Shown here in pieces: positions 25,286-51,469 of a stretch of 64,000 nt of DNA (the first letter of the stretch is position 1; each line of letters opens with the position of its first letter). The notes beneath the pieces were generated by a model. That model searched no databases and was not told the DNA's origin. It worked only from the letters and a program-made list of their open reading frames with translations. Made by a program: the position numbers and the translations under genes. The stretch spans positions 227,957 through 291,956 of the forward strand of contig NZ_VYIX01000002.1 of the NCBI RefSeq assembly GCF_009755885.1, written 5' to 3'. Source of the stretch: Brachyspira sp. SAP_772. GTDB taxonomy: Bacteria > Spirochaetota > Brachyspiria > Brachyspirales > Brachyspiraceae.

Positions 25286-25370
25286 AAACAATCTCCATAA
25301 AAAATATAGTTTTTAATGAAGACATTATAATATAAAAGTCGCTATTGTAAAGAGTAATAATTATTTTTAG

Positions 25371-25398
25371 TTGATTTTTAGTAAATTTATGATAAAAT
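25371..25398 (+). promoter_or_regulatory. Likely promoter of the ATPase/TOPRIM pair
   Basis: TTGATT (25371-25376), 16-bp spacer, TAAAAT (25393-25398), 36 bp before the ATPase ATG. Confidence 0.45.
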
Positions 25399-25433
25399 GT
25401 AATAAAAATTAAAAAAATAAAGGTAAAATTAGA

Positions 25434-26759
25434 ATGTTTACTTATGTAAGACTTAAAAATTATAAATCATTAGTTGATTTTGAAGTAGATTTAACATCAT
25501 CAAAAAATAATCCTAAAAAAATGATTATAATTTATGGCGAAAATGGAGCTGGTAAAACCAATTTTATAAATGCATTTTTTACTTTATTTGAAACATTAAA
25601 TACTAAAATATATAAAACAGCTATAGATAAATTTATGCTAGAAAATTCTGATGATAAAAAAAATAAAAAAGAATTGGAATTCTTTTTTAATAAAGTATTA
25701 AAAGATAATTTTAAAAATTTGGATACTATAATAGAAAAAAGTAAAACAATAGGTTCTAAAGATAATATGGTTTTAGAATTTGGTTTTAAATTAAATGGTA
25801 AAAATGGAGTATATTATATTGAAACTGATAATGAAAATATTGTAAAAGAAAAATTAGAATATGTTTTAGATAAAAATAAAACAAAGTACTTTGAATTATC
25901 AAATAAAGAAATATATATAAATAAATCTTTGTTTAAATCTGATAAATATTTTAATGAAATAAAAGATCTAATAGATAAATTTTGGGGTAAACATTCATTT
26001 TTATCTATTCTATTATTTGAACAGCATGATAAAACAAAAAAATATATATCAAAAAATATAAATAATAATATATTTGATGTTATTAAATATTTTTTATCAA
26101 TGTCTATTTATATAAAAAATGAAAGTAATATAGAAAAAGGAAAAATAAGTGTAGATAAAAACATTATTTCTATTATGGATAATAGTTACATAAAAATAAA
26201 AGAAGAAGAAAAACTTAATCATACAGAAAAAATATTAAATAACTTTTTTACATCTATATATAGTGATATAAAAAAAGTATACTATAAAAAAGAAATAAAA
26301 GATGATAAGCTTCATTATAATTTATTTATAAAAAAACAAATATATGGAAAAATTATAGATATAGATTTTAAATTAGAGGCAACAGGCACACAAAAATTAC
26401 TCAGATTATTTCCATTAATATTATCATCTATGAAAAAAAATAATATAGTAGCAATAGATGAATTAGACAGCGGTATACATGATATTTTAACAGCATCAAT
26501 ATTAAAATCATTATTTTGTGATATTAAAGGACAATTTATATTAACAACTCATAATACAACTATTTTAGAATCAGATATAAAAAAAGAATGTATATATATA
26601 TTTAATATAGACAGCGAAGGAAAAAAAATACTAGTTCCTATAACAGAATATGATAAAGAACATCCAAATATAAACTTTAGAAAAAGATATTTGAAAGGAA
26701 TATATTATGGTATTCCAATTGTTTCTGATATAGATTTTAAAGATATATTGGAGGAATAA
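25434..26759 (+). CDS. AAA/ABC-type ATPase of a putative two-gene defence cassette
   Basis: 441 residues. Overall build of AAA_15/AAA_21 (OLD-like, ABC-fold) ATPases. N-terminal beta strand FTYVRLKNYKSLVDFEVDL, Walker A YGENGAGKT (34-42), a long Lys/Asn-rich helical insertion (about 60-310), an ABC-signature-like EATGTQKLLRL, Walker B IVAIDELDSG (Asp342-Glu343), and H-loop His373 in LTTHNTT. The gene downstream begins 4 nt after the stop and encodes a TOPRIM-like protein. ATPase plus TOPRIM pairs of this shape are known in anti-phage systems (PARIS AriA/AriB, OLD/Gabija relatives). That role is inferred. Confidence 0.78.
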   Translation: MFTYVRLKNYKSLVDFEVDLTSSKNNPKKMIIIYGENGAGKTNFINAFFTLFETLNTKIYKTAIDKFMLENSDDKKNKKELEFFFNKVLKDNFKNLDTIIEKSKTIGSKDNMVLEFGFKLNGKNGVYYIETDNENIVKEKLEYVLDKNKTKYFELSNKEIYINKSLFKSDKYFNEIKDLIDKFWGKHSFLSILLFEQHDKTKKYISKNINNNIFDVIKYFLSMSIYIKNESNIEKGKISVDKNIISIMDNSYIKIKEEEKLNHTEKILNNFFTSIYSDIKKVYYKKEIKDDKLHYNLFIKKQIYGKIIDIDFKLEATGTQKLLRLFPLILSSMKKNNIVAIDELDSGIHDILTASILKSLFCDIKGQFILTTHNTTILESDIKKECIYIFNIDSEGKKILVPITEYDKEHPNINFRKRYLKGIYYGIPIVSDIDFKDILEE

Positions 26760-26763
26760 CTAT

Positions 26764-27354
26764 ATGTACTATAAAGGAAATTATCTTAAAGCTATAGTTA
26801 TTGTTCATGGTAAATCTGAATTACAAATGTGTGATTTTATAAAAAAGAATTTAAGATTGAAAATTGATATTATATCTAAAAATAAAGGGAAAAATTCTAT
26901 ACAAATATCAAGTGTAATGAAAAGATTAGAGGGGAAAGATATTAATCCTTCAAGTAATTTTATAAATACATATAAGGATGATTTGGAAATTAAAGATAAT
27001 AAAATAAATAATGATTTCAAAATATTTATAATAATGGATACAGATGACTGTAAAAATGATGAAGAAAAAAATAATTTCATATATAAAAATATGTTCAAAA
27101 ATCATTGGGCTTATAATTATATAGTTCCAATATATAATAATGATAACTTAGAATGCGTATTAAATAAAGCTAAAATAAAAGTAGAAAAGAAAAAAGACTA
27201 TATAAAAATATTTCCTACTGACAAAAAATATATAAAAAGTGATACCATTCAAATAGAAGAATTTTACCAAAAACTTTTAAAAGTTAAAAATATTTCAAAT
27301 ATGCATATCTTTATCAAATTTTGTTTAGATAATAAATTAATAATTCATAAATAA
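26764..27354 (+). CDS. TOPRIM-like (RloB/AriB-like) putative nuclease partner
   Basis: 196 residues. The start of a TOPRIM fold is visible: hydrophobic strand AIVIVHGKSE with the conserved Glu19, then strand FKIFIIMDTDD with Asp92-x-Asp94. A later NNDNLECVLNKA resembles the Asn/Glu-containing helix of RloB-like proteins. TOPRIM Glu/DxD residues bind Mg2+ for nuclease or primase chemistry. GGAGGAA overlaps the end of the ATPase gene, so translation is probably coupled. It ends 2 bp before the convergent yihY-like gene. Alternative: a DUF4435 or DUF3226 relative. Confidence 0.65.
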   Translation: MYYKGNYLKAIVIVHGKSELQMCDFIKKNLRLKIDIISKNKGKNSIQISSVMKRLEGKDINPSSNFINTYKDDLEIKDNKINNDFKIFIIMDTDDCKNDEEKNNFIYKNMFKNHWAYNYIVPIYNNDNLECVLNKAKIKVEKKKDYIKIFPTDKKYIKSDTIQIEEFYQKLLKVKNISNMHIFIKFCLDNKLIIHK

Positions 27355-27356
27355 TA

Positions 27357-28976
27357 TTATTTTCTTTTATTTTCAACTAAAGCCAAAAGCGTTGTATTAT
27401 AATCTTTAGCAGATATTGCTTTATTTTGATATATGATATTTTTGTATTTATCATTACGGTTAAAATGTTTAGCTCTGAAACCGCCTGTCATTTTTAGTTT
27501 ATATAAAATATCTCCAACAGTTATATGTTCTGGAGGGCATGCTAATGTGTATGAAGTAGTTGTGCCTTCTACTATTTTTACTATGTAGTTAGCTTGTTCC
27601 AAAGAATCTGCTATGTCGTTTAATACAGAAGGTGCAACTTTTAAATCTCTTGCCAAATCATACATAGACATGCATTTTTTATTATTTACAAATCTATAAG
27701 CTATTGTATGCATAAACTCTAAAGCTATCATCTCTTTTTCTGCAAAAGATAATTTTATATTTGTTACATCCACTCCATAAGACCTGAAATATTGAAGCGA
27801 GTAAGTTAACTCTGCACCAAATAAAATGATTATCCATACAATATAAAGTAAGAGCAAAAGTACTGGTATTTGTGCAAAGGCACTTGCTGATGATAACTCT
27901 GCAGGCTCTATGCTCGTTAGAAGAGAGTTTTCACTTGTAATTGTTACTATGTCATCTAATTGAAAATTATATTTTCTCACCTGCTCATATATGTTAGGAG
28001 AGAAGTTTGTAAATAACAAATTATTACTAGATATCATTTCTCTTTCATATGTAGCAGCAGATATTCCTGTGCCTTCATCTTCTATTATTCTATAACTTAT
28101 TCTATCTAATTTTATGTCTACTAATTCATTTTTATTATTTAGTAGGTTTACCTCTCTTACAATATATTCTGTTTTATATTTATCACTGTCAAATATCTGT
28201 TTATAATTTTTTACGTTAATATTTAATTTAAAATATACACTAAATAAAGTAATAATAGCAATAGCTACAAGCACAGAAGATATTAAAGCATTAGACCAAT
28301 TAACTTTAGTTTGCGGTACCAATACATAAGAAAACAATATAAGCATGCTCATAGCAATAACAGGAGTTACCCAAGATATTAATATTCTTAAAATAGCAGG
28401 CAAATAATATAAAGCTATAGAAGAATAAGTTATTAAAGTAAAAGATATACCAATAGAAACAGGAATCAATATTAGAAGTGCAATATAGTTTACAGCAACT
28501 CTTGGTATAGAAGTTCTAATTTTTACACGCCAAATTTTAATAAGTGATTTTTGAATATTATGAAGTATTAAACTAGCACTCACTAAAGTAGATATTACAC
28601 CTATAATACCAAAACTTGCTAAATCAGTATTATCAGCAATATTTAAAATCTGCCTTACCATAGGTTCATAGAAAGGTGCATTTTTTTCCATCCAATCGAA
28701 TATTAAAATAAATATGTTTTGATAAATATTAAATATTCTAAGCACAAACAAACCAACTATTAATGCTGGTATAAAAGAAAGTGTAACAAGATAAGTAAGA
28801 GAAGCTGCTCTTATAGTACAGTCATCTTTAAAAAAGTCTGTTATTGCAAAGGTTATTACTCTATATAGGTTGATTAAAAATCTATAAAAACGGTTTACAT
28901 TAGCAGTATCTATAGAATAAATTTCTTTTTGAAAAAAACTTTTGATTTTGTTTGTAAAAATTTTGAATTTCGTCAT
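27357..28976 (-). CDS. YihY/BrkB family membrane protein with C-terminal winged-helix region
   Basis: 539 residues. The N-terminal signature RAASLTYLVTLSFIPALIVGL belongs to the YihY/UPF0761 family (once mis-called RNase BN). About six TM helices span residues 30-370, with an unusual extracytoplasmic insertion of about 90 residues (about 255-340) before the last helix. The C-terminal 120 residues (EKEMIALEFMHTIAYRF..., MYDLARDLKVAPSVLNDIADSLEQ) look like a winged-helix domain. Family function is unclear. The start codon lies just before the divergent tRNA-Leu promoter. Confidence 0.85.
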   Translation of the reverse strand: MTKFKIFTNKIKSFFQKEIYSIDTANVNRFYRFLINLYRVITFAITDFFKDDCTIRAASLTYLVTLSFIPALIVGLFVLRIFNIYQNIFILIFDWMEKNAPFYEPMVRQILNIADNTDLASFGIIGVISTLVSASLILHNIQKSLIKIWRVKIRTSIPRVAVNYIALLILIPVSIGISFTLITYSSIALYYLPAILRILISWVTPVIAMSMLILFSYVLVPQTKVNWSNALISSVLVAIAIITLFSVYFKLNINVKNYKQIFDSDKYKTEYIVREVNLLNNKNELVDIKLDRISYRIIEDEGTGISAATYEREMISSNNLLFTNFSPNIYEQVRKYNFQLDDIVTITSENSLLTSIEPAELSSASAFAQIPVLLLLLYIVWIIILFGAELTYSLQYFRSYGVDVTNIKLSFAEKEMIALEFMHTIAYRFVNNKKCMSMYDLARDLKVAPSVLNDIADSLEQANYIVKIVEGTTTSYTLACPPEHITVGDILYKLKMTGGFRAKHFNRNDKYKNIIYQNKAISAKDYNTTLLALVENKRK

Positions 28977-48880: not shown

Positions 48881-51469
48881 ATGGATATTTTAAATTATAT
48901 TGATAAAGGAGCTACTTTATCAAAGTTAGGCAGATATGAAGAGGCTATAGAATGTTATAATAAGTTATTAAAATTGGATGATAAAAATATTCATGCTTAT
49001 AATAAGAAAGGAGTTGCTTTATCAAAGTTAGGCAGATATGAAGAGGCTATAGAATGTTATAATAAGTTATTAAAATTGGATGATAAAAATATTAATGCTT
49101 ATAATAATAAAGGAAATGCTTTATCAGAGTTAGGCAAATATGAAGAAGCTATAGAATGCTACAATAAAGCATTAGAATTAGATGATAAAAATATTCTTGC
49201 TTATAATAATAAAGGAGCTACTTTATCAGAGTTAGGCAAATATGAAGAAGCTATAGAATGTTACAATAGAGTTATTAATATTGACAGTAAAAATAGTAAG
49301 GCTCACCATTACAAAGCAAGGTCTTTATTACAATTAAATAAGCATAGAGAAGCATTGGTTAATTTCAATAATGTTAATGATGACTATTTATCTTCATTTG
49401 ATAAAGAAAAAACATTAATTTTTTATTCACAAAAATTAAGATGTTTAGCTTATTCTAATAATTATAAAGACACTATATATTGCTGTGATAAAATATTAGA
49501 ATTAGATGATAGAAATATTGTTGCTTATAATAATAAAGGAAATGCTTTATTAGATTTAGGCAGATGCGAAGAGGCTATAAAATGTTTTGATAAAGTATTA
49601 GAATTAGATGATAAAGATATTGATGCTTATAATAATAAAGGAGTTGCTTTATCAGAGTTAGGCAGATATGAAGAAGCTATAAAATGTTTTGATAAAGTAT
49701 TAGAATTAGATGATAAAAATATTTTTGCTTATAATTTTAAAGGAAATGCTTTATTAGAGTTAGGCAGATATGAAGAAGCTATAAAATGTTTTGATAAAGT
49801 ATTAGAATTAGATGATAAAAGTATTTATGCTTATAATTTTAAAGGAAATGTTTTATCAAAGTTAGGCAGATATGAAGAGGCTATAGAATGTTATAATAAG
49901 TTATTAAAATTGGATGATAAAAATATTGCTATTTATAATAATAAAGGAGAGGCTTTATTAGAGTTAGGCAGATATGAAGAAGCTATAGAATGTTACAATA
50001 GAGTTATTAATATTGACAGTAAAAATAGTATGGCTCACCATTACAAAGCAATGTCTTTATTACAATTAAATAAGCATAGAGAAGCATTGGTTAATTTCAA
50101 TAATGTTAATGATGACTATTTATCTTCATTTGATAAAGAAAAAACATTAATTTTTTATTCACAAAAATTAGAATGTTTAAATTATTCTAATAATTATAAA
50201 GACACTATATATTGCTGTGATAAAATATTAGAATTAGATGATAAAGATATTGATGCTTATAATAATAAAGGAAATGCTTTATCAGATTTAGGCAGATATG
50301 AAGAGGCTATAGAATGTTATAATAAGTCATTAAAATTAGATGATAAAAGTATTGATGCTTATAATGGTCAAGGAGAGGCTTTATCAGAGTTAGGCAGATA
50401 TGAAGAGGCTATAGAATGTTATAATAAGTCATTAAAATTAGATGATAAAGATATTGTAGCTTATAATAATAAAGGAAATGCTTTATTAGATTTAGGCAGA
50501 TATGAAGAGGCTATAGAATGTTATAATAAGTTATTAAAATTAGATGATAAAGATATTGATGCTTATAATAATAAAGGAAATGCTTTATCAGATTTAGGCA
50601 GATATGAAGAGGCTATAGAATGTTATAATAAGTCATTAAAATTAGATGATAAAAGTATTGATGCTTATAATGGTCAAGGAGTTGCTTTATCAGAGTTAGG
50701 CAGATATGAAGAAGCTATAGAATGTTTTGATAAAGTATTAGAATTAGATGATAAAAATATTATTGCTTATAATAATAAAGGAGAGGCTTTATCACATTTA
50801 GGCAGATATGAGGAAGCTATAGGATGTTTTAATAAAGCATTAAAATTAGATAATAAAGATATTGATTTATTAAAAAACAAATTGGAATGTTTGGAAAGAT
50901 TAAATAATTATAAAAATATTATAAGCTGTATAGATGACATATTAAAAATACATGATTTATTTGAAAGTGATTATATAAAAGAATTGAAATTAAAAAAAGC
51001 TGATTATCTTTTCTCTTTGGAAGATTATAAAAGGGCGTTAAAATCCTATGAAGAATTAAAAACTGAAGAATTAAAAACTGATGATTATGAAATAAAAAAG
51101 AAAATAATTATTTGTTTTATAAAATTAAATAATTTTCAGAAGGCTCAAAAATATATTTCTAAATTAATAACAAATAATAAAAATGATGAGCTTTATTATT
51201 ACAGAGGCATTTGTTTGTTTAATAATAATAAATATCAGGAATGTATAAAAGATTTTGATTCTGCTATAGATTATGAAGATTCAAAGTTTTATAAAGGATT
51301 GTCTTTGCATTATCTTGGAAGAGATTTTGAGGCTTCAATATTAATTACAGAATATAAGAATATAAATGAAGAAGACTATAGTAAAAAATATAATCAATTT
51401 AAAGAAGTGATAGATAAAATATTTGTTCAAGATGATAAATCCGATTTGGCAGAAAAAACAGATAATTAA
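48881..51469 (+). CDS. Large TPR protein with near-identical tandem repeats
   Basis: 862 residues, no signal peptide, so probably cytoplasmic. The first 660 residues hold 15 canonical 34-residue TPRs, each with G(R/K)(Y/C)EEAI, KLDDK and AYNNKG phrases almost unchanged. They are interrupted twice by the same irregular block (VINIDSKNS ... NYKDTIYCCDKILELDD). The last 200 residues are diverged TPR-like helices and an acidic tail. A protein-binding scaffold; partner unknown. AAGGAAG precedes the ATG. Repeat homogeneity suggests recent expansion; copy number probably differs between strains. Confidence 0.88.
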   Translation: MDILNYIDKGATLSKLGRYEEAIECYNKLLKLDDKNIHAYNKKGVALSKLGRYEEAIECYNKLLKLDDKNINAYNNKGNALSELGKYEEAIECYNKALELDDKNILAYNNKGATLSELGKYEEAIECYNRVINIDSKNSKAHHYKARSLLQLNKHREALVNFNNVNDDYLSSFDKEKTLIFYSQKLRCLAYSNNYKDTIYCCDKILELDDRNIVAYNNKGNALLDLGRCEEAIKCFDKVLELDDKDIDAYNNKGVALSELGRYEEAIKCFDKVLELDDKNIFAYNFKGNALLELGRYEEAIKCFDKVLELDDKSIYAYNFKGNVLSKLGRYEEAIECYNKLLKLDDKNIAIYNNKGEALLELGRYEEAIECYNRVINIDSKNSMAHHYKAMSLLQLNKHREALVNFNNVNDDYLSSFDKEKTLIFYSQKLECLNYSNNYKDTIYCCDKILELDDKDIDAYNNKGNALSDLGRYEEAIECYNKSLKLDDKSIDAYNGQGEALSELGRYEEAIECYNKSLKLDDKDIVAYNNKGNALLDLGRYEEAIECYNKLLKLDDKDIDAYNNKGNALSDLGRYEEAIECYNKSLKLDDKSIDAYNGQGVALSELGRYEEAIECFDKVLELDDKNIIAYNNKGEALSHLGRYEEAIGCFNKALKLDNKDIDLLKNKLECLERLNNYKNIISCIDDILKIHDLFESDYIKELKLKKADYLFSLEDYKRALKSYEELKTEELKTDDYEIKKKIIICFIKLNNFQKAQKYISKLITNNKNDELYYYRGICLFNNNKYQECIKDFDSAIDYEDSKFYKGLSLHYLGRDFEASILITEYKNINEEDYSKKYNQFKEVIDKIFVQDDKSDLAEKTDN
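48884..50863 (+). repeat. 102-bp tandem DNA repeats inside the TPR gene
   Basis: The unit of about 102 bp contains AGGCAGATATGAAGAGGCTA and recurs 15 times with few differences. A larger block of about 245 bp at 49261 is repeated at 49993 (732 bp apart). Hence the array grew by both single-unit and multi-unit duplication. Confidence 0.9.

Follow-up and report, generated by a model that had tools for sequence, protein, structure and literature searches.

We identified in Brachyspira sp. SAP_772 two adjacent genes that probably form a two-gene guard-and-effector immune module, in which an ABC ATPase (A) is combined with a TOPRIM-like protein (B), and which would represent a divergent sister lineage of the RloAB/AbiL systems. 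This reading draws on family relations, motifs, pairing, mobility, selection and the lesion pattern of the pair, all of which were computed here. The genes follow each other in tandem on the plus strand of the analysed stretch of 64,000 nucleotides (the window), 4 nt from stop to start, exactly where the original prediction, made from the sequence of the window, had placed them, and they are enclosed by purH and yihY as it had described. The features of the locus are as follows:

25434..26759, plus strand: gene A, a 441-aa RecF/AAA_21-type ABC ATPase of RloA/AbiLi-like kind (basis: ORF, Pfam, PADLOC, invariant residues, profile and own clade) and proposed sensor and guard (antitoxin), with Walker A at 35-43, signature-like EATGTQKLL at 315-323, Walker B at D342-E343, H-loop H373 and C-terminal YLKGIYYGIP
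26764..27354, plus strand: gene B, a 196-aa TOPRIM-like protein and proposed nuclease effector (toxin), with the motifs HGKSE (E19), MDTDD (D92, D94, D95) and YNNDNLECVL
26747..26766, plus strand: end of A with a GGAGG ribosome-binding site, and A stop and B start 4 nt apart, as read from the sequence
25292..25433, no strand: intergenic region common to A and the divergent purH, with promoter-like matches on both strands

On the left of the pair purH is divergent, and from the right a yihY/BrkB-family gene (PF03631) converges. The GGAGG ribosome-binding site of B sits within the 3' end of A (TTGGAGGAATAACTATATG), and the layout of this junction makes translational coupling of both genes probable. 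Promoter-like matches in the intergenic region were found on the minus strand (11/12 at 25351-25324) and on the plus strand (9/12 at 25371-25398), their number showing no excess over chance. With 18-19 %, the G+C content of A and B is the lowest among 38 coding sequences of the window (roughly ≥200 aa; mean 27 %). Between Brachyspira species, intact copies of both genes display a dN/dS of ~0.13-0.3 and are under purifying selection; these values, along with the same gene order in other phyla, phages and plasmids, argue that the two reading frames are not due to chance. Synonymous divergence was unequal between the genes when the window copy (G000) was compared with G009 and G021 (L168, L169), with a dS of ~0.23-0.27 for A and ~0.54-0.62 for B, hinting at recombination inside the cassette among Brachyspira species. 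As side observations on the surroundings, the converging gene (27357-28976) encodes a membrane protein of the YihY/BrkB family, fused at its C terminus to a winged-helix (Rrf2-like) domain, and the homologue of this protein is longer in several other Brachyspira genomes by additional residues in the middle. In addition, the window encodes at 48881-51469 an 862-aa protein consisting almost entirely of tetratricopeptide repeats.

Pfam matches of A comprised AAA_21 (4.4e-18), AAA_15 and SMC_N (4.3e-6), and the residues that had been singled out beforehand, i.e. Walker A (Y34-GENGAGKTN), D342-E343 and H373, are present and invariant or nearly so across the A family. The best PADLOC model was AbiLi (6.5e-41), well ahead of the AriA and PtuA models; AriA models matched with 1.3e-19 and 1.1e-15, and AbiLi thus fits far better. 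A profile of the A family aligned over its full length (hhalign, 9e-34, 369 columns), including the C-terminal YLxGxYGxIP motif, with ATPases that adjoin RloB in Spirochaetota. These RloB-linked ATPases match the same AbiLi model (up to 8e-95) and their RloB partners match AbiLii, hence the AbiL models of PADLOC and RloAB represent one family. A maximum likelihood tree was built from 61 ATPases, 28 of them paired with a B-type protein and 33 with RloB/AbiLii; one long branch with a support of 100/100 split the two groups, placing A outside the clade of RloB-partnered ATPases, and no partner swapping between both clades was seen among these 61 proteins. Two genomes (G1011 and G699) carry both kinds of pairs. 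Separately, at one locus of a Spirochaetota genome (L062, 1474-2139), the neighbour of the RloB homologue did not resemble the usual ATPase within the stretch covered, and a 417-aa protein with a VWA-like look was noticed nearby.

Protein B itself matched no family in Pfam, PADLOC, NCBIfam, PHROGs or the PDB sequences; in particular, the window copy matched neither the RloB (PF13707) nor the AbiLii model, and ten diverse relatives yielded nothing convincing in the family libraries, with PF15156 at 0.0012 (below its cut-off) and AbiLii at 0.013 in one member. Its relation to RloB emerged from profile comparison. A shallow hhalign run of 8 against 7 sequences had been indecisive (probability 7 %, P 0.005), and the match was settled by deeper sets of 25 B-type and 33 RloB/AbiLii sequences, which gave a score of 39.0 (P 2e-5, probability 77 %) as opposed to a maximum of 17.8 in 30 trials with column-shuffled RloB and 14.9 for a reversed profile. 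This alignment places VIVHGKSE (E19) on IVCEGTKTE, IIMDTDDC (D92, D94, D95) on CVFDRDDH and NLECVL on CFELW, so that the motifs fall in register: HGxSE on EGxxTE, DTDD on DRDD, and LExVL on FELW. The RloB profile in turn links to the OLD TOPRIM (P 3.5e-7) and to DUF4276 (2.3e-6), and B compared with the OLD TOPRIM profile scored 22 versus 16.7 for shuffled controls, covering the first motif only. Two further assignments of B were rejected: as DUF4276, where its profile score stayed at or below the shuffled controls, and as DUF4435/AriB, for which there was no Pfam or PADLOC match and hhalign did no better than shuffles, a profile comparison that is weak because the DUF4435 set held two sequences.

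In the TOPRIM fold, whose core alternates beta strands and alpha helices, a glutamate follows strand 1 and a DxD motif follows strand 3. Confident AlphaFold2 models of B (pLDDT 82.9 and then 86.6; pTM 0.83 and then 0.86) predict the order strand 10-14, helix 17-29, strand 34-37, helix 48-55, strand 86-92, helix 99-106, strand 120-125 and helix 129-135, in which E19 would be situated at the start of helix 1, D92 at the end of strand 3 and D94 directly thereafter. E19, D92 and D94, the residues on which the TOPRIM assignment had originally been based, are invariant in the B family alignments, as is D95, and taken together with the predicted secondary structure they reproduce the TOPRIM order. 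In Foldseek searches against the PDB, the top match in both runs was the TOPRIM-bearing retron Eco2, which was not significant (best E 0.02-0.04); the lists also contained topoisomerase II, 6njv and, in the first run, the OLD C-terminal domain, mixed with Rossmann-like folds of receiver and TIR type, and with such E values among receiver and TIR domains this search is supportive only. The predicted fold is therefore consistent with TOPRIM, in line with the initial proposal, and sequence profile and model together identify B as a putative divergent TOPRIM relative of RloB/AbiLii. A conserved SIQI element follows strand 2 of B and was not seen in a seven-sequence RloB alignment.

The pairing of both genes is obligate, as A was found directly upstream at every B locus with enough flanking sequence, which answers the co-occurrence check suggested at the outset. 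In its distribution, the pair is accessory and mobile. Intact or as remains, the pair is present in 12 of the 29 genomes of the window's family, all of a single genus (12/26 Brachyspira), and it was found in no other Spirochaetota among the remaining genomes of a phylum-wide sample of 296. Furthermore, 7 of 371 Clostridia and 8 of 376 Bacilli genomes carry it (~2 %; counts that include two seed genomes), and it is present on a conjugative plasmid of Enterococcus faecalis, with an integrase, a Fic and an HsdS gene nearby, as well as in Oenococcus phage phi9805 and several IMG/VR contigs. In three temperate phages the pair lies a little upstream of the terminase, two of them having a C5 DNA methylase or Mrr endonuclease gene on its other side. 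Within Brachyspira, B sits between housekeeping genes and was not near annotated defence genes.

In Brachyspira, the place beside purH is the ancestral one of the cassette, which is now undergoing loss. All Brachyspira copies of A form a single clade in the tree (support 100/100), and the pair adjoins purH in nine genomes (the window, G004, G008, G009, G010, G011, G018, G021 and G025). Both genes are intact in five (G000, G008, G009, G011 and G021), and in two others (G022 and G023) merely the last ~28 codons of B remain next to purH, a deletion scar situated near 5000-5238 of L174 and at 6605-6862 of L175. In the simplest history, the pair was acquired once, kept its place and was lost repeatedly. 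A recent insertion beside purH was ruled out, since the Brachyspira copies of A are one clade and all mapped loci adjoin purH; comparison with empty sites via yihY was uninformative, as in genomes lacking the pair purH lies outside the stretch examined beside yihY. This patchy occurrence also rules out that the pair represents universally conserved core housekeeping genes, the finding which the original prediction had named as speaking against it. Along the same lines, a RecF-like ATPase and a small partner serving host repair or metabolism, unrelated to phages, would fit the low dN/dS and the stable place beside purH at all mapped Brachyspira loci with the pair, but this explanation, already disfavoured, is very improbable: the pair is missing from 14 of the 26 Brachyspira genomes and from all other sampled Spirochaetota, it is carried by phages and a plasmid, it has the lowest G+C of the window, and B has been repeatedly and independently inactivated, in addition to two full deletions.

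These inactivations are one-sided. Of the ~33 separate loci, both genes are intact at 24 and damaged at two (G323 and one viral contig), and six carry stops or frameshifts in B next to a complete A (G004, G010, G018, G025, G576 and phage phi9805; the lesions of G576 lie at L074/L076, that of phi9805 at L044 and the others at L170-L173), whereas a broken A with an intact B was found at no locus; G003, which is split between contigs, was left out of the count. If weighted by gene length, six of six lesions in B correspond to p ~0.0009, a post hoc value from a small sample, in which G004 and G018 are close relatives with differing lesions. The B lesions comprise a homopolymer insertion (G025), an insertion of A (G018), a nonsense codon (G004) and a nonsense codon plus a 1-nt deletion (G010). 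Those of G025 and G018 fall in A-rich tracts, so that slippage or assembly error may have contributed; in contrast, the lesion of G004 is a substitution stop, and G010 shows two independent ones. A programmed frameshift or phase variation of B as a general rule was considered and is unsupported, as the lesions differ from each other. Loss of B alone is the pattern to be expected if B is harmful without A, and B is probably the toxic half of the pair.

The same asymmetry would also fit a rival idea, according to which the pair serves mobile elements mainly as a toxin-antitoxin or addiction module that stabilises plasmids and prophages or takes part in superinfection competition, with A acting only as antitoxin and with no broad phage sensing. 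The occurrence of the pair on conjugative plasmids and prophage-like contigs agrees with such a role, as do the toxicity-neutralisation assays in which AAA and TOPRIM_OLD pairs, including the RloB type, act as toxin-antitoxin pairs, and the finding that one other AAA-neutralised pair gave no protection in E. coli against a coliphage collection (PMC10440598). However, A retains all ATPase motifs and a large size that is conserved with the sensor ATPases AriA, AbiLi and PtuA, and such long vertical inheritance at one chromosomal site, beside purH in Brachyspira, is untypical of element addiction, so we regard a mere addiction module as unlikely.

Assuming the guard-and-effector reading, we propose that A, as an ATP-dependent oligomer, would bind and restrain B, and hence would also act as antitoxin, until A receives a phage cue, upon which B is freed or activated. 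The latter might then cleave nucleic acid via two metals held by E19, D92 and D94 (possibly also D95), with RNA or tRNA as the most likely target by analogy to AriB and retron Eco2, and its activity would stop translation, leading to abortive infection. Precedents exist for individual steps: in AriA-AriB, the TOPRIM tRNase is held by an ATPase hexamer and set free by a phage protein (PMC12409363), the TOPRIM domain of retron Eco2 is an RNase (PMC12405507), and in the neutralisation assays mentioned above, AAA ATPases counteract the toxicity of TOPRIM_OLD partners, the RloB type among them (PMC10440598). Restraint, trigger, substrate and the phage protection that had been suspected from the beginning are what we infer from these analogies, and the cassette may accordingly be pictured as working like AbiL or PARIS. 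Alternatively, the pair could act in the manner of OLD or Gabija as a nuclease module directed at DNA, where A positions B on phage DNA, which B nicks or cuts with no guard or toxin logic. The RecF/SMC-like nature of A, reflected in its SMC_N match, and the DNA-cutting TOPRIM nuclease GajA of Gabija (PMC10440598; PMC12405507) are in keeping with this mechanism. Yet A and B are made as two proteins, like their counterparts in PARIS and AbiL, the B profile is nearest to RloB/AbiLii and not to OLD, and inactivation of B alone suits a toxin in need of restraint, all of which renders a DNA-directed module improbable.

Pairs of an ATPase and a TOPRIM protein are a common and poorly understood class of bacterial immunity, most triggers and targets of which are unknown. 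The restrained-effector module proposed here, if confirmed, would provide Brachyspira with a candidate system of phage defence, and one literature search retrieved no paper on systems of this sort in the genus. Since the B effector went undetected by the libraries used, its carriers are probably counted as incomplete AbiL or missed. The 24 intact loci across Brachyspira, Clostridia, Bacilli, phages and plasmids constitute a comparison set, complemented by a natural series of effector-dead B alleles in a small two-gene unit. More tentatively, and with some doubt on our side, B with its SIQI element could found an unrecognised TOPRIM effector family; with the RloA-like ATPases of its private clade it would then form an undescribed immune system separate from the known ones, with a trigger and a nucleic-acid target of its own, and present detectors would score its loci as orphan AbiLi. 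The main uncertainty about the novelty of the cassette is the D60 TOPRIM_OLD toxin of S. agalactiae 2603V/R (Kurata et al. 2023, PMC10440598), which may be of the same family as B.

The original prediction had assigned the pair to the ATPase and TOPRIM logic of PARIS, OLD and RloB-type systems with no clean match to any of them. This logic holds, with A being RloA/AbiLi-like and B aligning with RloB/AbiLii at the profile level, and can now be refined in that the closest relative is RloAB/AbiL, and not PARIS or OLD. With AbiL (AbiLi/AbiLii of Lactococcus) and RloA/RloB, the cassette shares a two-gene operon with the ATPase first, an ATPase of ~430-440 aa ending in YLxGxYGxIP and matching AbiLi, and a second protein of ~200 aa with EGxxTE or HGxSE, DxD and FE/LE motifs. 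It differs in that B matches no Pfam RloB model and AbiLii was hit by a single family member (E 0.013), and in that both ATPase clades are fully supported, each with its own partner type. As B fails the RloB and AbiLii models and its ATPase stands outside the RloB-partnered clade, we do not classify the cassette as AbiL/RloAB proper. PARIS resembles it in encoding a separate ABC ATPase and TOPRIM protein and in the AriA matches of A, but lacks correspondence in the effector, as B is shorter and bears no DUF4435/AriB match, and A fits AbiLi much better; in the absence of AriB, the cassette is not PARIS. OLD and GajA of Gabija follow the same ABC ATPase and TOPRIM logic in single fused proteins, whereas A and B are two reading frames in every intact locus, hence it is not OLD either. 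Retron Eco2, whose TOPRIM protein is the best PDB fold match of B, is a fusion with a reverse transcriptase and has no ABC ATPase, and sequence links of B to OLD, GajA and Eco2 are marginal. In Septu (PtuAB), PtuB is an HNH nuclease, while B has no HNH match and is TOPRIM-like instead. The same architecture is found in the NetFlax pairs of the D29 AAA antitoxin with the TOPRIM_OLD toxins D44 (RloB-like) or D60, where the TOPRIM protein was assayed as a toxin and is neutralised by the AAA ATPase (PMC10440598).
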